Part shown: piece after piece, positions 13,890 to 22,739 of the stretch | Layout of the letters: each line of letters opens with the position of its first letter | Position numbering within the stretch: position 1 is the first letter of the stretch | NCBI RefSeq assembly: GCF_008973465.1 | Contig: NZ_WBXN01000004.1 | Coordinates: forward strand, 5,124,501 to 5,188,500 | Reading direction: 5' to 3' | DNA length: 64,000 nucleotides | From: Streptomyces sp. SS1-1 | GTDB taxonomy: Bacteria > Actinomycetota > Actinomycetes > Streptomycetales > Streptomycetaceae | The notes under the pieces: generated by a model | Database searches by the model: none | What the model was told of the DNA's origin: nothing | The model's input: only the letters and a program-made list of their open reading frames with translations | Made by a program: the position numbers and the translations under genes

Positions 13890-15560
13890 GTGGCGCAGGT
13901 GCCGCAGACATTCTTCGATGCTCTCGCGGTGCGTACCTGGTGCGGCCTCGCGCTGGAGTCGCTGGGCAGGGCGCGCGAGGAGATCGACGCGATCAACGTC
14001 TACCCCGTGGCGGACGGCGACACCGGGACGAACCTGTACCTGACCGTGGAGTCCGCGGCCGCCGCCGTGGAGGCCGTCTTCACCGCCTACGACGTGGGCA
14101 AGCCCACACTCGCCGACGCCGTCCGCGCCATGGCGCACGGCGCCCTGATCGGGGCGCGCGGCAACTCCGGGACGATCCTCGCGCAGCTGCTGCGGGGCAT
14201 GGCCCAGGTGCTCGCTGCCGAGGGGGAGACGGCCCACACCGACGGCACCGGGCTGCGGCTGGCGCTGCGGACCGCGGCCGACTCCGCCCGGCAGGCCGTG
14301 GCCCACCCCGTGGAGGGCACGGTCCTCACGGTGGCCTCGGCCGCCGCCGACGCGGCCGGCGCGGCCACCGGCGAGGACTGCGGGGCGATCGCCCGGGCCG
14401 CCTTCGACGGGGCGCGCGCGGCGCTGGCCGCCACCCCCGGGCAACTGGCCGCGCTGGAGCGCGCCGGGGTGGTCGACGCCGGAGGGCGTGGCCTCGTCGC
14501 GGTCCTGGGCGCGCTGGTCGAGACGTTCACCGGGGAGGCGGCACCCGTGGTCGCCGGGGCGACGGCCACGCGCGCGCGTGCCGGTGCGGGGGACGGGCCG
14601 GCCGGTGCCGAGGACTGCGCCGACGGCCCCGGCGAGGGCGGCCCCGCGTTCGAGGTCATCTACCTGCTGGAGGCGGAGGACGCGGCCGTGGCCCGGCTGC
14701 GGGACCGCCTCGACGCTCTCGGCGACTCCCTCGTGGTCGTCGGCGGGGACGGCCTGTGGAACGTCCACGTCCATGTCGACGACGCGGGCGCCGCCGTGGA
14801 GGCCGGCGTGGAGGCCGGACGGCCGTACCGGATCCGGATCACCCACTTCGGGGCCGGGGACGCGCACAGCACCGGCGAGCGCACGCCCCGCGAACGGGTC
14901 CAGCGGGCCGTCGTCGCCGTCGTGCCCGGTGAGGGACTGGCCGGGCTGTACGGCGAGGCCGGCGCGACCACCGTGCTGGCCCGTCCCGGGGAGCCCCCGG
15001 CCAGCGGCGAGCTCGTCGAGGCCGTACGGCGGGCCCACGCCCGCGAGGTCGTCCTGCTCCCCAACGACGCCGATCTGCGGCACACCGCCGCCGCGGCCGC
15101 CGAGCAGGCCCGCGCCGAAGGCATCCGCGTGGCCCTCATCCCCACCCGCTCCGCGGTCCAGGGCATAGCGGCGCTCGCCGTGCACGAACCCGAGCGCCGC
15201 TTCGACGAGGACGTCGTCTCGATGACCTCCGCGGCCGGCGCCACCCGGCACGCCGAGGTCGCCGTCGCCGAGCACCGGTCCTGGACCTCGGCCGGCATCT
15301 GCCAGGCAGGGGACGTCCTCGGGCTCATCGACGGCGACGTGGCCGTGATCGGAGCCGACGTCACCGCCGTCGCCGAGACCGTCCTCGACCGCATGCTCGC
15401 CGCCGGCGGCGAACTCGTCACCCTCGTCCTCGGCGACGACGCCCCCGGCCCGATCGCCGAGCACCTCGAGAGCCGCGTACGGGAGGCGTACCTCGCCGTC
15501 GACACGGTGGTGTACCGGGGCGGCCGCCAGGGAGCGCTCCTGCTCATCGGCGTGGAGTGA
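13890..15560 (+). CDS. DAK2/DhaL plus DegV-like protein (FakA-type fatty-acid kinase subunit)
   Basis: The 556-residue protein has an N-terminal DhaL/DAK2 domain: INVYPVADGDTGTNLYLTVE, whose aspartates near 42-44 bind Mg-ADP, and ARGNSGTILAQLLRGMAQ. A middle domain and a C-terminal DegV-like domain follow (SAVQGIAALAVHEPE). This architecture is that of YloV/FakA, which phosphorylates FakB-bound fatty acids (family knowledge). No FakB partner is adjacent. GTG 13890 follows GAGGAGG. In many Gram-positives the gene sits directly before recG; here an opposite-strand pair intervenes. Confidence 0.88.
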   Translation: MAQVPQTFFDALAVRTWCGLALESLGRAREEIDAINVYPVADGDTGTNLYLTVESAAAAVEAVFTAYDVGKPTLADAVRAMAHGALIGARGNSGTILAQLLRGMAQVLAAEGETAHTDGTGLRLALRTAADSARQAVAHPVEGTVLTVASAAADAAGAATGEDCGAIARAAFDGARAALAATPGQLAALERAGVVDAGGRGLVAVLGALVETFTGEAAPVVAGATATRARAGAGDGPAGAEDCADGPGEGGPAFEVIYLLEAEDAAVARLRDRLDALGDSLVVVGGDGLWNVHVHVDDAGAAVEAGVEAGRPYRIRITHFGAGDAHSTGERTPRERVQRAVVAVVPGEGLAGLYGEAGATTVLARPGEPPASGELVEAVRRAHAREVVLLPNDADLRHTAAAAAEQARAEGIRVALIPTRSAVQGIAALAVHEPERRFDEDVVSMTSAAGATRHAEVAVAEHRSWTSAGICQAGDVLGLIDGDVAVIGADVTAVAETVLDRMLAAGGELVTLVLGDDAPGPIAEHLESRVREAYLAVDTVVYRGGRQGALLLIGVE

Positions 15561-15572
15561 CCCCGGCGCGCG

Positions 15573-18509
15573 TCACTCCTGGTCCTGTTCCGCCACGACC
15601 TGGAGCATCTGTTCGGCCTCGGCCCGGCGTCGGCGGACCGTGTCGTCCCGTCCGTCGGCGTTCTCGTAGGCGGCGAGCACGGCACGCGCGTGTGCCGCCG
15701 CGTCGGCGGGGCGGCTGAGGTCGGCCTGCAGCCAGCCGGCGGCGAGTTCGGCGCCGGTGCGGCTGTGCAGGGCGTCGTCGCCGAGGGACGCGAACACCGT
15801 CACGGCCCGGGACATCTGCGCCAGGGCCTCCTCCAGTGCCGTGCGGATCGAGTCGTCCTCCGCGTCCTCGGCCGCCGAGCGGGCCAGCAGGTCCCCGAAC
15901 TGGCGGTGTGTCTGGCCGAGTTCGGCGACCAGCCGCTGCCGCGCCTCCTCGTCGTCGGCCTCGTCCAGCGCCGCCGCGCACTCCTCGACCGCGCCCTTCA
16001 TCAGCTCGGCCGCCCGCGCCCCGTCGCCGTCCTCCACCCGCAGCGCCAGCCACGCGCGGGCGCGCAGCGAGCGGACCAGGCCGTGGACGTTGCCCAGGGA
16101 GCGCCACAGCTCGCCCGCGCGCGTGTACGCGCGGTCGGCGTCCGTGTGCAGCCCCGCGTGGCCCAGCGACTCGGCGGCCAGGTGCGCCAGTGTCGCGTGG
16201 TCGTGCTGCTCGGGCCACTCCCGGGCGATCGCGGCCGCCTGCAGCCGCCGTTCCGCCGCGTCCCGGTGGTCGCCGAGCTCCTCCAGGCAGTCACCGAGCC
16301 ACCACAGCGTCTGGACGACCGCCCCGTCGCCGTGCGTCTCGGCGGACAGGTCGGGCAGCGCGGACTCCAGCACCTCCGCCGCCTCGGCGAATCGTTGCTG
16401 CCGCACCAGGAACCCCCCGAGCTGGTGCCGCGCCCAGGCGCCCAGCGTGCGGCTCTCACCCGCCTCGTCCGCCCAGTGCGCCGCCTCCAGGGCGTGCTCC
16501 GCGGCCTCCTCGGACACCCCGGTGCCGCCCAGCACCTCGGCCAGCTGGAGATGCAGCTGGGCCCGCCCGGTCGCTTCCAGGTACGGCCCGCCGTGCTCCA
16601 GGGCGGCCCGCAGCGCCCGCTCGGCCCTGGCCGTGTCGCCGAGATGGTGGGCGAGACCGGCCAGCCGGGCCTCGTACTCGACCGCGAACCACGGCAGCCC
16701 CGCCGCGACGAACTCGCCCGAGGCCCGCGCGAACAGCTCCGCGGCCCCCTCCACGTCACCGGACAGCGCCGCCAGCTCGGCCAGCATCGCCCAGGCCTCC
16801 GCGACCCGCGCGAGCAGCCGTACGTCGTCCCCGGTGCGCCCCGAGACGAACGCCAGCACCTCCCGGACGGCCGACTCCGCGGCGGACAGCGCGGCGCTCT
16901 CGGCGCCCTCCTCCGCCTCGTGCACCCGGCGCATCAGGATCCGCGCGCGGCTCATCAGGACGGCCGCCGTCTGCCGCACACCCGTGCCGTCCTCGGCGTA
17001 CAGGGCCAGAACCTGGTCGTACAGGGCGCCGACCGCCTCGATCGCCGCGGACACCTCGCCGGTGAGCGCCTCGACGTACGCCCCACGCGCGCGTGCCGCC
17101 AGCGCCTCGCCCGGATCGCCCGCCTCCGCGTACAGCGCGGCGGCCTCCTCGAACAGGGGGACACCCTCCGGGCCGAGGTCCATCCCCCGGTGGTCGGCGA
17201 TCTCCGCCCGGTCCCGCGCCTCCAGCTCGACGCCCTCGGCGGCCCGCGACACCGCCGCCCACGCCTCGATGGCACTGGGCCGCAGCGTGTCCGACAGCCG
17301 CCGCGCCTCCGCGAGCAGCTCCGGCAGACCCGGCGCCTCCTTGGCAGCGGGGGAAGGCACCACGGCAGCCGCCGGGGCCGCCGGCGCCGGGCGGTTCGCC
17401 GTCCGCACCCCCAGCGGCAGCCGCTCCACCAGCGGTTCCTGCGCCATACGCAGCCGCACCCGCTCACTCGTGTACGACGTGCCGTTGCGCTCGTCGAAGC
17501 GCGCGGCCAGCGCCAGCGCCTCCGCACGCGCGTGGGCGGCCAGTTCGCGCGCCGTCCACGTCCGGTCCGCCGGGCCGGGCACCTGCTGCCCGCCCAGCCC
17601 CAGCACCGTCAACCGGTCCATGAGCAGCGTCACCGCCGCCATGAAGTCCAGCCTGCTGCGCGGCTGCCCGTCGTCCGTGAAGTACGCCGGACGCTCCGCC
17701 AGCAGCTCCAGACCGCGCGCCTCGTTGCCCGTCAGCGCGCAGAACTCCACATGGTCCGCGTACGCGCCCCGCATGCTCTCCATCGGCCGCACCAGCCGGA
17801 AGCCCCGCAGATGGTTGGCGCGGGCCTCGTCCACCCGGCCCAGGCGCAGCAGCGGGGCCAGCGAGGACGCGAGCACGGTGTGCGGTTCGTGGGCACAGGC
17901 GTACTCGCCGTCCAGGACCGGCCGCCACAGCCGGACCGCCTCCGCGTCCCGGCCCCGCACCGCCTGCCACCAGCCCTGCCCGTGCAGCTCGCACGCGTGG
18001 CAGTCGGCCATGGAGTCCCGGTCGGCCGCCAGCCACGCCGCGTACGCCCGCTCCGCCCGCTCCAGGTCACCGACGTGCGCGGCCACGCTGAACTCGGCGC
18101 CGCGCACCGCCCGCTCGGAGTGCCCGGCCAGCCGGTAGCGGTGCTCCATCTCGCCGAGCCACTTCTCGATCGAGGAGAGCGGGATGTGCGGCTGGTCGAG
18201 CATCCCGGCCGACATCCACTTGAAGACCCAGTGCAGGCTGTGCGTCTCGTACTCGTCGAAGTCCTCGGGCCGCTCGTCCCACATGCGCAGCAGCCGCGCG
18301 AACGGGACGAACATCTTCGCCTTCTCGGAGCTGTAGTTGTAGACCTTCAGCTGGTGCCCAAGGGCCTCGATCACGGCGAGCGGCTCGCCCAGCCGCTCCG
18401 CCTCGGCGAGCAGCTGCTCCGCGCGCGCGTTGCGGGCCGGGCCCTCCGGCTGCTCGCCGTTCTCCGCCATCGCCCGGCGCAGCGCGTCGAGGTCGGTGAT
18501 CTCCGTCAT
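15573..18509 (-). CDS. Large helical-repeat (TPR-like) protein paired with the HSP90 homologue
   Basis: The 978-residue protein (MTEITDLDALRRAMAENGEQ start) is nearly all helix. Many pairs follow the TPR pattern of small residues and A-x-x-x-A, such as LYAEAGDPGEALAARARG, LAHHLGDTARAERALRAAL and LGDHRDAAERRLQAA. Residues 1-368 form one helical block and an Ala/Pro-rich linker (about 369-395) leads to a second array. C170, C173, H176, C205, H207 and H210 cluster in the first block. No enzymatic motif was seen. Its ATG overlaps the HSP90 stop as TGATG, with GGAGGGGGAC upstream, so the two are translationally coupled. It may be a client-binding or scaffold partner (inference). Confidence 0.85.
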   Translation of the reverse strand: MTEITDLDALRRAMAENGEQPEGPARNARAEQLLAEAERLGEPLAVIEALGHQLKVYNYSSEKAKMFVPFARLLRMWDERPEDFDEYETHSLHWVFKWMSAGMLDQPHIPLSSIEKWLGEMEHRYRLAGHSERAVRGAEFSVAAHVGDLERAERAYAAWLAADRDSMADCHACELHGQGWWQAVRGRDAEAVRLWRPVLDGEYACAHEPHTVLASSLAPLLRLGRVDEARANHLRGFRLVRPMESMRGAYADHVEFCALTGNEARGLELLAERPAYFTDDGQPRSRLDFMAAVTLLMDRLTVLGLGGQQVPGPADRTWTARELAAHARAEALALAARFDERNGTSYTSERVRLRMAQEPLVERLPLGVRTANRPAPAAPAAAVVPSPAAKEAPGLPELLAEARRLSDTLRPSAIEAWAAVSRAAEGVELEARDRAEIADHRGMDLGPEGVPLFEEAAALYAEAGDPGEALAARARGAYVEALTGEVSAAIEAVGALYDQVLALYAEDGTGVRQTAAVLMSRARILMRRVHEAEEGAESAALSAAESAVREVLAFVSGRTGDDVRLLARVAEAWAMLAELAALSGDVEGAAELFARASGEFVAAGLPWFAVEYEARLAGLAHHLGDTARAERALRAALEHGGPYLEATGRAQLHLQLAEVLGGTGVSEEAAEHALEAAHWADEAGESRTLGAWARHQLGGFLVRQQRFAEAAEVLESALPDLSAETHGDGAVVQTLWWLGDCLEELGDHRDAAERRLQAAAIAREWPEQHDHATLAHLAAESLGHAGLHTDADRAYTRAGELWRSLGNVHGLVRSLRARAWLALRVEDGDGARAAELMKGAVEECAAALDEADDEEARQRLVAELGQTHRQFGDLLARSAAEDAEDDSIRTALEEALAQMSRAVTVFASLGDDALHSRTGAELAAGWLQADLSRPADAAAHARAVLAAYENADGRDDTVRRRRAEAEQMLQVVAEQDQE

Positions 18510-20344
18510 CAGCGGTCCCCCTCCCCGTTCGTGGCCCACTCCAGCAGGCCGATGAAGGCCCGGTTCAGCAGCGCCGAGTCCGCGGGCCTGAGCGGGCGCT
18601 GCGCCATCAGCAGCGCCTGCCCGTACAGGGACTCCACGGCGGTGCCGATCAGTTCCGGCCCGCCGAGCGAACCGATCCGCCGGATCAGCGGGCTGAGGTG
18701 GTTGAGCACCAGACGCGCGCGGGGCGCCTCGCCGCGCAGCGAGCCGAGGATGCCCGCCCACAGGTCGTCGGCCTCCTCCTCGGCCCGCGCACGGGCCTGC
18801 TCGTGCCGGGCGGCCCGGTCGTCCAGGTGCAGCGCGGGCACCGACAGCGGATGGAACGCGCGCAGCACCACGTCGCAGCCCAGCGGGTCGAGCGTGGCCC
18901 GCGCGGTCGCCAGGAAACCCGACAGGGCCAGCTCCACCGCCGGGTCGACCGCGTCCAGATGGGCGGTCACGGTGTCCGCGTCCAGCTCGGCGACGACCGT
19001 GCCCGGCCGCACCGACGGCAGCGCCTCGACGAGCTCGCTGTCGTACGTGTAGCCGCCGTTGATCACGCCGACGCCCTGCGCGGACGCGATCGGCGCGACC
19101 TGCCGGTACTCCTCGACGGTCCGGGTGAAGTGCACGACCCGGTGCCGCCGCGCGAACTCCTCCAGGGAGAGCCGGCCGTCGGTCGTCTCGAACGGCAGCC
19201 AGGGCAGCATCGTGCGCAGCATCTCCCGGTCGTGCCGCGCCAGGGACTTCACGCCCAGATGGTGCACCGCGAGGAACGCGGCCAGCCGCTCCGGGTCACC
19301 GGCCGCCAGCCCCGTCAGCCAGGCCCGGATCCGTTCCCCCAGCGCCTCCCGCACCGCCGCCAGCGTCTCGTCCTCGTACAGCGACTCGCGGGACGCCGTC
19401 GGCCGCAGGCTGTCGGTGTCCAGCACGCACCGCACGAAGAACGCCCAGTCGGGCAGCAGCTGTTCGGCCCGCTCGGTCAGCAGCATGCCCTTGAGGTGGA
19501 CGCGATGGCCCGCCCGCTGCGCCGGGCTGACCGCCGACGGCAGGACGTACGCCACCCCGCGGATCCCCGCGAGCGGCACGTCCAGCTCGATCGCGTCCAG
19601 CGGCGTGAAGCCGAACAGGTCGTGGCAGTGCCGCCCGAGCGCCACCCGGCGGGCGGCGGGGGAGGGGTACGGCCGGTCCCAGGGCGCCGGCAGATCGGTG
19701 ACCGCCTCCTCGCCGACCCGCACGTCGTACGGCAGCAGCGAGCCGAAGTCCCGCGCCAGCGCCAGCACCCGGTCCTCGGCCAGCCACTCGGCGGCGCCCG
19801 CCCGGGCCACCAGGTGCATGGTCGTGCCGGGCTCGGGGCGCGCCTCGTCCGGCAGCGTGCGCACGGTGTACGAACCGTCGTCGGTCGCCGTCCACTCCAC
19901 GGGCGCCGCGTCCGGCGTACGCGCGCTGCGGCTGACCACCCGGATCCGCTCGGCGACGACGAAGCAGGCCAGCAGCCCGATGCCGAACTGCCCGAGGAAG
20001 TCCGAGCGCGCCTCCTGAAGCCCCTCCGCCCGCTTGGAGCTGCGCCCGATCGTCGCCAGGAGGTCGTGCACGTCCGCCTCGGTCAGCCCGATCCCGGAGT
20101 CCTCGACCCGCAGCGCGCCCGGCTCGGCGAACAGCCGCACGCGCGCGGGCGCGTCCGGCTCGGCGGCACGCCGGGCGGTGATGGCGTCGACCGCGTTCTG
20201 GAGCAGTTCGCGCAGGTAGACCTTCGGACTGGAGTACAGGTGGTGGGAGAGCAGGTCCACCAGACCGCGCAGGTCGACCTGGAAGGAACGGGGAGACGGG
20301 GAGGCCGCGGGGGCCTGGGATGACTGTGGGGTCTGGGAGTCCAT
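18509..20344 (-). CDS. HSP90-family protein (divergent HtpG)
   Basis: The 611-residue protein has a 20-residue Pro/Ser-rich start, then a GHKL ATPase domain: LRELLQNAVDA (E46, N50, D53), DSGIG (82-86) and GQFGIG (118-123). The middle domain keeps KGMLLTERAEQLLPDWAFF and the catalytic arginine context TASRE (R319). The last 60 residues (RLVLNHLSPLIRR, then ESLYGQALLMA) match the HtpG dimerisation end. All ATPase residues are present, so it should be active. It has no MEEVD tail. It differs clearly from canonical HtpG between about 340 and 540. It heads a two-gene operon and is divergent from recG. Confidence 0.9.
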   Translation of the reverse strand: MDSQTPQSSQAPAASPSPRSFQVDLRGLVDLLSHHLYSSPKVYLRELLQNAVDAITARRAAEPDAPARVRLFAEPGALRVEDSGIGLTEADVHDLLATIGRSSKRAEGLQEARSDFLGQFGIGLLACFVVAERIRVVSRSARTPDAAPVEWTATDDGSYTVRTLPDEARPEPGTTMHLVARAGAAEWLAEDRVLALARDFGSLLPYDVRVGEEAVTDLPAPWDRPYPSPAARRVALGRHCHDLFGFTPLDAIELDVPLAGIRGVAYVLPSAVSPAQRAGHRVHLKGMLLTERAEQLLPDWAFFVRCVLDTDSLRPTASRESLYEDETLAAVREALGERIRAWLTGLAAGDPERLAAFLAVHHLGVKSLARHDREMLRTMLPWLPFETTDGRLSLEEFARRHRVVHFTRTVEEYRQVAPIASAQGVGVINGGYTYDSELVEALPSVRPGTVVAELDADTVTAHLDAVDPAVELALSGFLATARATLDPLGCDVVLRAFHPLSVPALHLDDRAARHEQARARAEEEADDLWAGILGSLRGEAPRARLVLNHLSPLIRRIGSLGGPELIGTAVESLYGQALLMAQRPLRPADSALLNRAFIGLLEWATNGEGDR

Positions 20345-20534
20345 CGTCGCAGCGCCGGTGGGGGGAGGGGCGACGGCGCGGGGTCGGGCGGTCCCGGTTG
20401 GGCGGTGACCGCGAAAGGGATGGCCGGGGCGCGTCATCCTAGATCCGAGACGAACCGGCTGACCAGGGGTTTCCGGGACGTTTACCCACAAGCTCACGGC
20501 GGCGCCCGCCGCGATGTCAGTGCCGTGGTGTGGA

Positions 20535-22739
20535 ATGGATCTCGTGCCCGCACTGGACGAACCACTGAAGAAGGTGCTCGGCCCTCCCACCGCGAAGGTG
20601 ATGGCCGAGCACCTCGGCCTGCACACCGTCGGGGACCTGCTGCACCACTATCCCCGCAGATACGAGGAGCGCGGCCAGCTCACCCACCTCGCGGACCTCC
20701 CCATGGACGAGCACGTCACCGTGGTCGCCATGGTCGCCGACGCCCGGCTGCACAGCTTCGCCTCCTCGCGGGCGCCGCGCGGCAAGGGCCAGCGCCTGGA
20801 GGTCACCATCACCGACGGCAGCGGCCGCCTCCAACTGGTCTTCTTCGGCAACGGCGTCCACAAGCCGCACAAGGAGCTCCTGCCCGGCACCCGCGCGATG
20901 TTCGCCGGCAAGGTCTCCGTCTTCAACCGCCGCCTCCAACTCGCGCACCCCGCGTACGAACTGCTGCGGGCGGACTCCGAGGAGGCCGTCGAGACCTGGG
21001 CCGGCGCGCTGATCCCGCTCTACCCGGCCACCGCCAAACTGGAGTCCTGGAAGATCGGCAAGGCGATCCAGACGGTCCTGCCCAGCGCCCAGGAGGCCGT
21101 CGACCCGCTCCCGGAGTCCCTGCGCGAAGGCCGCGGCCTGGTCCCCCTGCCGGAGGCCCTGCTCAAGATCCACCGCCCGCACACCAAGGCGGACATCGAG
21201 GACGCCCGCGCCCGCCTCAAGTGGGACGAGGCCTTCGTCCTCCAGGTCGCGCTCGCCCGCCGCCGGCACGCCGACGCCCAACTCCCCGCCGTCGCCCGGC
21301 GCCCCGCACCCGACGGGCTGCTCACCGCCTTCGACGCCCGCCTGCCCTTCACCCTCACCGACGGCCAGCAGCAGGTCTCCCGGGAGATCTTCGCCGACCT
21401 GGCCACTGAACACCCGATGCACCGGCTGCTCCAGGGCGAGGTCGGCTCCGGCAAGACATTGGTGGCGCTGCGCGCGATGCTCGCCGTCGTCGACGCCGGC
21501 GGGCAGGCCGCGATGCTCGCGCCCACCGAGGTGCTGGCGCAGCAGCATCACCGGTCGATCGTCGAGATGATGGGCGACCTCGCCGAGGGCGGCACCCTGG
21601 GCGGCGCCGAGCACGCCACCAAGGTCGTGCTGCTCACCGGGTCCATGGGGGCCGCCGCCCGTCGCCAGGCCCTGCTCGACCTCGTCACCGGCGAGGCCGG
21701 GATCGTCATCGGCACCCACGCCCTGATCGAGGACAAGGTCCAGTTCCACGACCTCGGCCTGGTCGTCGTCGACGAGCAGCACCGCTTCGGCGTGGAGCAG
21801 CGCGACGCCCTGCGCGGCAAGGGCAAACAACCCCCGCACCTGCTGGTCATGACGGCCACCCCCATCCCCCGCACGGTCGCGATGACGGTCTTCGGCGACC
21901 TGGAGACGTCCGTCCTCGACCAGCTCCCCGCCGGCCGCTCACCGATCGCCTCCCATGTCGTCCCGGCCGCCGACAAGCCCCACTTCCTCACCCGCGCCTG
22001 GCAGCGGGTGCGCGAGGAGGTGGAGAACGGGCACCAGGCGTACGTCGTCTGCCCCCGCATCGGTGACGAGGAGGACGACCCGAAGAAGGCCAAGGCCGCC
22101 TCGCCCGAGGACGCGGCCGAGAAGCGCCCGCCGCTGGCCGTCCTCGACGTCGCCGACCAGCTCGTCAAGGGCCCCCTGAAGGGCCTCACGGTCGAGGTGC
22201 TGCACGGCAGGATGCACCCCGACGACAAGGACGCCGTGATGCGCCGCTTCGCCGCCGGCGACACGGACGTCCTCGTCGCCACGACCGTCATCGAGGTCGG
22301 CGTCAATGTCCCGAACGCCACCGCCATGGTGATCATGGACGCCGACCGCTTCGGCGTCTCCCAGCTCCACCAGCTGCGCGGCCGTGTCGGCCGCGGCTCG
22401 GCGCCGGGGCTGTGCCTGCTGGTCACCGAGATGCCCGAGGCGAGCCCCGCCCGGCAGCGCCTGGCCGCCGTCGCCTCCACCCTCGACGGCTTCGAGCTCT
22501 CCCGGATCGACTTGGAGCAGCGCCGCGAGGGCGACGTCCTCGGCCAGGCCCAGTCCGGAGCCCGCACCAGCCTGCGGATGCTGGCCGTCATCGAGGACGA
22601 GGAGATCATCGCCGAGGCCCGGCAGGAGGCCGCGGCTTTGGTGGAGCGGGACCCGGAGCTCACGGGACTGCCCGGCCTGCGGACCGCCCTGGACGCCCTC
22701 CTGGACGAGGAGCGGGAGCAGTACCTGGAGAAGGGGTGA
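20535..22739 (+). CDS. recG: ATP-dependent DNA helicase RecG
   Basis: The 734-residue SF2 helicase reverses stalled replication forks and branch-migrates junctions. It has an N-terminal wedge/OB domain (GDLLHHYPRRYEERG, then EVTITDGSGRLQLVFF), Walker A GEVGSGKTLVALRA, motif II as DEQH in VVVDEQHRFGVEQR, motif III TATPIPRT and motif VI QLRGRVGRG. ATG 20535 gives the usual RecG start; an ATG 21 nt earlier is less likely. There is an insertion of Lys/Asp-rich residues (about 515-540) near DEEDDPKKAKAASPED. It opens the recG-rsmD-coaD block. Confidence 0.96.
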   Translation: MDLVPALDEPLKKVLGPPTAKVMAEHLGLHTVGDLLHHYPRRYEERGQLTHLADLPMDEHVTVVAMVADARLHSFASSRAPRGKGQRLEVTITDGSGRLQLVFFGNGVHKPHKELLPGTRAMFAGKVSVFNRRLQLAHPAYELLRADSEEAVETWAGALIPLYPATAKLESWKIGKAIQTVLPSAQEAVDPLPESLREGRGLVPLPEALLKIHRPHTKADIEDARARLKWDEAFVLQVALARRRHADAQLPAVARRPAPDGLLTAFDARLPFTLTDGQQQVSREIFADLATEHPMHRLLQGEVGSGKTLVALRAMLAVVDAGGQAAMLAPTEVLAQQHHRSIVEMMGDLAEGGTLGGAEHATKVVLLTGSMGAAARRQALLDLVTGEAGIVIGTHALIEDKVQFHDLGLVVVDEQHRFGVEQRDALRGKGKQPPHLLVMTATPIPRTVAMTVFGDLETSVLDQLPAGRSPIASHVVPAADKPHFLTRAWQRVREEVENGHQAYVVCPRIGDEEDDPKKAKAASPEDAAEKRPPLAVLDVADQLVKGPLKGLTVEVLHGRMHPDDKDAVMRRFAAGDTDVLVATTVIEVGVNVPNATAMVIMDADRFGVSQLHQLRGRVGRGSAPGLCLLVTEMPEASPARQRLAAVASTLDGFELSRIDLEQRREGDVLGQAQSGARTSLRMLAVIEDEEIIAEARQEAAALVERDPELTGLPGLRTALDALLDEEREQYLEKG

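Follow-up and report, generated by a model that had tools for sequence, protein, structure and literature searches.

An HSP90 of the PRK14083 lineage and its co-encoded TPR-type neighbour in Streptomyces: a candidate bacterial HSP90 co-chaperone

Eukaryotic HSP90 is served by tetratricopeptide repeat (TPR) proteins, the co-chaperones Hop/Sti1 and relatives, which dock via MEEVD. An HSP90 with a TPR-type neighbour is also encoded in a 64,000-nucleotide (nt) stretch of DNA from Streptomyces sp. SS1-1 (NCBI RefSeq assembly GCF_008973465.1, contig NZ_WBXN01000004.1, positions 5,124,501 to 5,188,500 of the forward strand), here called the window. The HSP90 gene (611 amino acids; 18509-20344, minus strand) is directly followed by the gene of a 978-residue protein (15573-18509, minus strand), called the partner in the following. 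The feature shared with the eukaryotic systems would be an HSP90 served by a TPR protein. Unlike the Hop/Sti1 type, however, the window HSP90 lacks MEEVD, and the partner is predicted to be a long superhelix instead of a set of 3-repeat clamps.

For bacteria, a passage in Press (2013, PMC3708813) states that no obligate Hsp90 co-chaperones have been identified, and the same text ignores hsp90B and hsp90C throughout its co-evolution analysis of bacterial HSP90. HTPG groups A-C were described in Chen (2006, PMC1525184), a passage of which gives S. coelicolor a pair of HTPG copies that fall into different groups (615 amino acids for the second copy) and Firmicutes a group C copy. Like groups B/C and hsp90B/hsp90C, as those passages present them, the window HSP90 belongs to a second bacterial HSP90 lineage, NF010683 (PRK14083), whose family model, 'HSP90 family protein', names neither a function nor a partner. 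The HSP90 lineage is known but little studied; the neighbour that accompanies NF010683 is reported here. In Listeria this neighbour is probably Lmo0941, judging by gene order (lmo0942 adjoins fri), a protein that a passage in PMC6901971 calls hypothetical and of unknown function. The open-licence papers searched contained no recognised report of the pairing, of the N-terminal domain of the partner (N-domain) or of its cysteine triad, and within this literature the pair has no described function, as had been stated in an earlier note made from the sequence alone.

The HSP90 and its downstream neighbour

With 857.1 bits against NF010683 (cut-off 455; model positions 4-599 of 604) and 168.5 bits against the canonical HtpG model NF003555, below the cut-off of 371, the window HSP90 is placed by its profile scores in NF010683, separate from canonical HtpG. 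The latter has the same fold and ATP site but no TPR neighbour in any of 42 htpG-type loci. In the HSP90 superfamily, the roles of the GHKL catalytic residues and of an arginine in the middle domain are established. The corresponding motifs of the window protein (E46, N50, D82, GQFGIG 118-123, TASRE 316-320) were confirmed in an alignment of 40 diverse rows at the positions claimed in the earlier note: E46, N50, D82, G84, G86, G118, F120, G121, I122 and G123 as well as T316, A317, R319 and E320 are invariant, and Q119 and S318 are kept in at least 90% of the rows. The AlphaFold model (mean predicted local distance difference test score, pLDDT, 87.9) aligns with its residues 22-609 to TRAP1 (7exp_A; Z 22.4, root-mean-square deviation 6.0, 509 residues) and with its residues 218-609 to the HSP90 chain 2cge_A (Z 21.5) and the human middle/C-terminal construct 7rxz_C (Z 21.0). 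By this model, the protein is predicted to possess the N-terminal, middle and C-terminal (dimerisation) domains of the superfamily. As the fold match spans nearly the whole length and no row of the alignment departs from the ATP-site residues or the arginine of the middle domain, it is by all signs a complete HSP90, predicted to be able to bind and hydrolyse ATP. The lack of a MEEVD tail, likewise noted before, extends to the family: an ending in EEVD or VD is absent from all 173 HSP90 frames inspected, which include some genes twice but no frame truncated at a locus end.

The genome of the window encodes a canonical htpG elsewhere (G000:C4:743080, 418 bits to PF00183) along with another NF010683 gene that has a TPR neighbour of its own (C4:30113 and C4:27261, approximately 30 kb from the contig end). 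As this genome has its own htpG and the window gene fails NF003555, the possibility that the latter is the ordinary housekeeping htpG was rejected. The same applies to the idea that the pair compensates for an absent htpG: among 101 genomes of the genus, taken to be Streptomyces since named Streptomyces share this recG site, 42 contain an htpG-type gene (defined by 169-196 bits to NF010683) and 62 contain NF010683 (one frameshifted copy included), and pair and htpG occur independently of each other (23 genomes have both, Fisher p 0.30).

HSP90, partner and recG were searched separately in these 101 genomes. All 72 full-length NF010683 genes (61 genomes) are directly followed by a partner on the same strand, the partner match starting 5-95 nt past the HSP90 match. 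Outside this count are two pieces of a frameshifted copy in G010, where the partner is present, and a contig-end fragment in G028 (labels of the type G### denote sampled genomes and L### fetched loci, with some genes fetched twice). Because the TPR gene is directly downstream in 72/72 cases, the adjacency is not due to chance, and co-occurrence of the two genes is nearly universal, not rare as the earlier note had allowed for. None of the 42 htpG-type loci has a partner-like gene within 5 kb. Ten partner rows in nine genomes are located away from any HSP90, namely C-terminal pieces on other contigs (G014, G032, G046), an orphan partner (G088, two rows), a remnant together with the first residues of an HSP90 (G080) and partial C-terminal TPR matches (G004, G015, G019, G055). 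Decaying or orphan loci can be seen in L055 (7303-12798, the frameshifted HSP90 of G010), L056 (9931-12398, the G080 remnant) and L057 (7805-11020), where the G088 partner stands alone beside a gene that by eye resembles a transposase gene.

The pairing is found well beyond Streptomyces. In separate searches of 396 Actinomycetota genomes, HSP90 (E <=1e-100) was detected in 12, the partner N-domain (E <=1e-8) in 13 and both in 11 (Fisher p 1e-18). On contigs of named genomes, 561 of 593 pattern hits among the matches listed encode relatives, and 80 loci were kept. Of these, 79 have a partner match downstream of the HSP90, 20 of the 80 having seeded the partner profile and thus matching by construction; in the 80th (L124) the contig ends. 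In Dermabacter (L126), an NAD synthase gene is located between HSP90 and partner. The 80 loci include Microbacteriaceae, Propionibacteriaceae, Jonesia, Corynebacterium, Nocardia, Pseudonocardiaceae, Micromonosporaceae, Thermomonosporaceae, Kribbella, Streptomyces and one Planctomycete (Schlesneria), in which only the beginning of the partner is on the contig (match of 55 positions, E 8e-7). A plasmid collection contained the N-domain in seven records and HSP90 beside it in six (three Streptomyces, Paenibacillus, two Listeria). One record of Listeria, NZ_CP030101.1 (L172), is filed as a plasmid and is, with 2.9 Mb, probably a chromosome.

PF00183 gave no match in the Listeria record or the Dermabacter sequences searched and only weak matches of the NF010683 kind, none of htpG strength, in those of Jonesia, Mycetocola and Salinibacterium. 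In the sequences searched from these five genera, which may be incomplete, the NF010683 protein is the only HSP90 seen. Its near-constant place beside an NF010683 HSP90 makes the partner a strong candidate as a helper dedicated to HSP90 in bacteria.

The partner and the evolution of the pair

Against the Pfam TPR models the partner remains just below threshold (best TPR_12, 29.6 bits, gathering score 30.1). Its structural model is nearly all-helical (pLDDT 90.5), the C-terminal part (residues ~393-978; 15573-17333, minus strand) yields profile matches to consensus TPR, LGN and OGT chains, and Foldseek matches this part to TPR superhelices. The model thus predicts a helical-hairpin superhelix of the TPR type, in agreement with the helical-repeat protein first proposed. 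In a viral structure library, the partner matches only generic repeat proteins.

The N-domain (residues 1-372; 17394-18509, minus strand) is the portion common to the actinobacterial, Listeria and Paenibacillus pairs, and the presence of the C-terminal superhelix depends on the lineage. The short partners of Listeria (322 amino acids) and Paenibacillus (353 amino acids) correspond to the N-domain of the long partners alone (E 1.4e-47 and 3.5e-63, respectively). No Pfam or NCBIfam family exceeds its cut-off over this domain (only weak single TPR repeats match), and no significant sequence match was found in the PDB, the best match of a short partner being Sti1 at E 0.21. Among 48 partner representatives chosen at <70% identity, C170 (codon 18000-18002), C173 (17991-17993) and C205 (17895-17897, all minus strand) are each kept in 98% and R341 of an FDxRNG motif in 100%. 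This conservation points to an unnamed domain of approximately 350 residues, characterised by a cysteine triad, possibly a metal or redox site, and the FDxRNG motif. No frame in the profile-searched loci matches both the HSP90 and the partner profile, as a fusion would.

The two genes share one base, position 18509, where the HSP90 stop and the partner start overlap (TGATG); of 167 loci, 124 offer a partner start codon that overlaps with the HSP90 stop, a way of choosing starts that favours overlap. To the left lies a FakA/YloV-like DAK2 gene (13893-15560, plus strand; TIGR03599, 442.8 bits, cut-off 396.1) and to the right recG (20535-22739, start possibly 20514, plus strand; 1153 bits, cut-off 995), and these coordinates agree with the initial description of a translationally coupled unit on the opposite strand between both flanks. 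DAK2 and recG are 37-410 nt apart in all ten fetched genomes without a pair at recG and 4.8-5.8 kb apart in 14 of the 15 fetched loci that contain the pair and show either flank; in the remaining one (L156) the gap is 7.9 kb, with approximately 2.7 kb extra between partner and DAK2. The pair at this site is a real insertion, as had been supposed. In the class of NF010683 copies to which the window belongs (class A, >=844 bits), 32 of 35 intact copies, and also the frameshifted one of G010, are arranged divergently to recG. As exceptions, G064 and G051 carry the pair elsewhere and have an empty recG site, and G099 stops at a contig edge.

Other lineages use other sites, for example beside secE in Microbacterium. 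A tree of the HSP90s, built by a quick method only, broadly follows the actinobacterial families (G329, of another family, falls among Streptomyces), and the recG-site copies cluster in it; their single origin is not proven. As the tree broadly follows taxonomy and the sites differ by lineage, the NF010683 family is old, its placement is lineage-specific and the unit has been kept intact. The view of an acquired module holds for the recG site, the family itself being old.

Ratios of nonsynonymous to synonymous substitutions (dN/dS; Nei-Gojobori) were calculated for 14 recG-site orthologues versus the window; as the DNA is GC-rich, only relative values count. The medians are 0.16 for HSP90, 0.28 for the N-domain and 0.42 for the C-terminal TPRs, the fastest-evolving portion of the partner, with 0.15 for RecG and 0.18 for DAK2. 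Such a gradient would be expected for a conserved docking domain with a client-facing surface; a sensor would also fit.

Readings of the pair

Taken together, it appears rather probable that the pair is a two-gene chaperone machine, in which an ATP-driven HSP90 of the PRK14083 lineage cooperates with a dedicated co-chaperone or client adaptor. The N-domain would dock on the HSP90 dimer without a MEEVD tail and couple HSP90 to its client, the C-terminal TPRs might select clients or else recruit another chaperone, the cysteine triad might bind a metal or sense the redox state, and the overlapping stop and start codons could hold the ratio of HSP90 to partner fixed. Besides the constant pairing, this reading draws on the short partners that match the N-domain alone, the overlap of stop and start codons, the order of the dN/dS values, the absence of a second HSP90 from the five genera above as far as searched, and the ClpB (with an HspR-type operator) or DnaK-GrpE genes adjoining a few pairs. 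The distance matrices of HSP90 and N-domain also correlate (r 0.95 over 166 pairs), although common ancestry and the double fetching of some genes raise this value. A more far-reaching version, which is tentative and has slightly less than an even chance, would make the partner the first obligately co-encoded bacterial HSP90 co-chaperone, with a new, metal- or redox-sensing N-domain that is conserved in Bacillota as well as in Actinomycetota and Planctomycetota. This domain would dock on a separate bacterial HSP90 lineage, and Actinobacteria would have added to it a fast-evolving, client-choosing TPR superhelix and one Streptomyces branch a third subunit.

With a co-encoded partner beside nearly every examined member of the lineage, the statement that bacteria have no such co-chaperone becomes directly testable with two co-expressible genes, and the pair would offer a simple bacterial model of HSP90-TPR cooperation without a MEEVD tail. 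If NF010683 corresponds to hsp90B or hsp90C, a function would be indicated for the paralogue lineage that the co-evolution study, in the passage cited above, set aside.

Several observations weigh against a chaperone machine. The evidence is genomic, and co-encoding also fits a dedicated client. The pair is dispensable, being absent from 39 of 101 Streptomyces genomes (one of them, G028, has the contig-end fragment). Partners without HSP90 occur in G088 and G298 (2 of 16 partner genes) and in Actinomyces oris, where no HSP90 lies within 5 kb of the N-domain (three stretches examined), and the HSP90 of G419 adjoins a different short TPR gene that the partner profile does not recognise. Chaperone neighbours are few: among 140 loci (some short or fetched twice), one has DnaK-GrpE and three, all of Salinibacterium, have ClpB, by our estimate no more than chance could give, and the window HSP90 has no upstream operator of HspR (HAIR, CTTGAGT-N7-ACTCAAG).

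The strongest alternative, although an unlikely one, is that the TPR protein is itself the client, a large sensor or scaffold that needs its own HSP90 to fold or switch, as plant NLR receptors need HSP90. The same genomic evidence applies to it, and the faster evolution of the partner is compatible with it. A single HSP90 gene precedes two tandem partner genes, both with an N-domain, in Listeria NCTC7974 (L222 4830-6798) and in L128 (3061-8370). The N-domain, moreover, persists alone or near YbjN: in G298 (L189 9532-11609) it is fused to and adjoins YbjN, and in A. oris (L221 3166-7883) it is encoded two genes behind a YbjN gene, both without HSP90. However, for a chaperone with one client it would be odd to have no second HSP90 beside it, as in the searched sequences of the five genera named above, and partners of 322-353 residues resemble a docking domain more than a client in need of HSP90.

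The earlier note had also suggested a sensor or conflict system. A defence against phage or stress in which HSP90 would be the ATPase switch and the TPR protein the sensor is improbable, and this suggestion was not borne out. Fast evolution of the C-terminal TPRs would suit such a role, as would two loci with divergent relatives. In G419 (L071 29-19129), a divergent NF010683 HSP90 and a short TPR gene stand between hsdM/hsdS-like genes (by eye) and the hsdR gene (Pfam) of a type I restriction system. On a Pseudanabaena plasmid (L174 4749-13809), an HSP90 relative of 877 residues gives a weak TIR match at its C-terminus (19.5 bits, cut-off 24.7); a TIR gene adjoins it, a TPR gene is close by and a VWA gene is also adjacent. 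Yet both relatives lack the N-domain, one being below the family cut-off, and HSP90 of the pair evolves as slowly as RecG. The recG and secE sites are housekeeping neighbourhoods, kept within a lineage. PADLOC 2.0.0 has no match for the partner and only short partial GHKL matches for HSP90: its TmtA and REase_II models, like the NCBIfam restriction enzymes BbrUII/HgiDII, share the GHKL ATP-binding fold but match only ~90-125 N-terminal HSP90 residues with 10 to 34 bits. No relative was found in viral contigs. Seventeen phage records match HSP90, two of them over at least 80% of it; one record, MT837560 (L175), carries an HSP90-partner pair and, with 77% GC, looks like bacterial contamination.

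Similarly doubtful is a regulatory ATPase module outside protein folding, in which HSP90 would be a nucleotide-dependent switch and the TPR protein the scaffold through which it acts on transcription or on proteins of the cell envelope. The association of the N-domain with YbjN, a Pfam 'putative sensory transduction regulator', would fit, as would L069, where a CoxE-type VWA gene lies just upstream together with a match of AAA type that has 28% to ClpB and may be MoxR. The complete HSP90 architecture with its middle-domain arginine, however, and the context of ClpB and an HspR operator in Salinibacterium speak against it. Neutral linkage is hardly credible. Genes do move as blocks, and copies at one site are inherited jointly, but the same pair recurs in three phyla at numerous sites unrelated to each other, and it also has paralogues and copies on plasmids.

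Upstream region and variant loci

Upstream of HSP90, a promoter-like TGGTCA-N18-TAGGAT (20436-20465, minus strand) points toward the gene; as TGGTC(A/G)-N18-TAGGAT it is kept in 30 of 33 recG-site loci scanned, and a scan with the sigma-70 consensus did not pick it up. The leader (20345-20429, minus strand), its start inferred from this element, contains two conserved hairpins, which were followed in an alignment of 18 of 28 available leaders. Stem I (20388-20412, minus strand; eight pairs) still pairs through four G-U changes, with one broken cell, and stem II (20352-20379, minus strand; six pairs), ending 7 nt before the HSP90 ATG, is unchanged in 18/18, its loop varying in length and sequence. 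As neither stem exhibits a compensatory double change (the three reported by the tool lie in other, weaker stems within the coding part), an RNA structure is only suggested, and the leader could possibly be a DNA operator; it is a candidate RNA thermometer or operator. The leader has no clear Shine-Dalgarno sequence and no match in Rfam. Taken by itself, the leader sequence of the window has a fold hardly superior to that of shuffled versions (z -1.06).

Heat-shock control in the window was rejected, as neither HAIR nor CIRCE is present upstream of HSP90. HAIR with one mismatch was found only in three Salinibacterium genomes (L118, L120, L122), between ClpB and the pair, which are divergent there (L118 5695-9836). 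The ClpB of L118 scores 1157 bits against TIGR03346, just under the cut-off of 1232; as the match starts at model position 148, this ClpB is without an N-terminal domain. In L122 (9532-14427), a second gene matches the C-terminal TPR part of the partner only. DnaK-GrpE genes lie upstream of a paralogous pair on the same strand in G009 (L061 10169-16600). A general genomic link to other chaperones was rejected for too few cases, DnaK, GrpE and ClpB having been sought and DnaJ, Hsp20 and GroEL not.

Across all lineages no recurrent third gene was found, save one (c4, ~326 amino acids, no family found) in one Streptomyces branch. It stands just upstream of HSP90 in 25 of 37 copies of the other two Streptomyces classes, 12 being without it, and in the S. 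globosus plasmid copy, giving 26 loci in total (L060, L061, L062, L064, L066, L176, L193-L197, L199, L201-L207, L209, L210, L212-L215 and L218). In one paralogous Streptomyces class, third gene, HSP90 and partner form a three-gene unit, and all three third-gene products that were read contain WGWEART.

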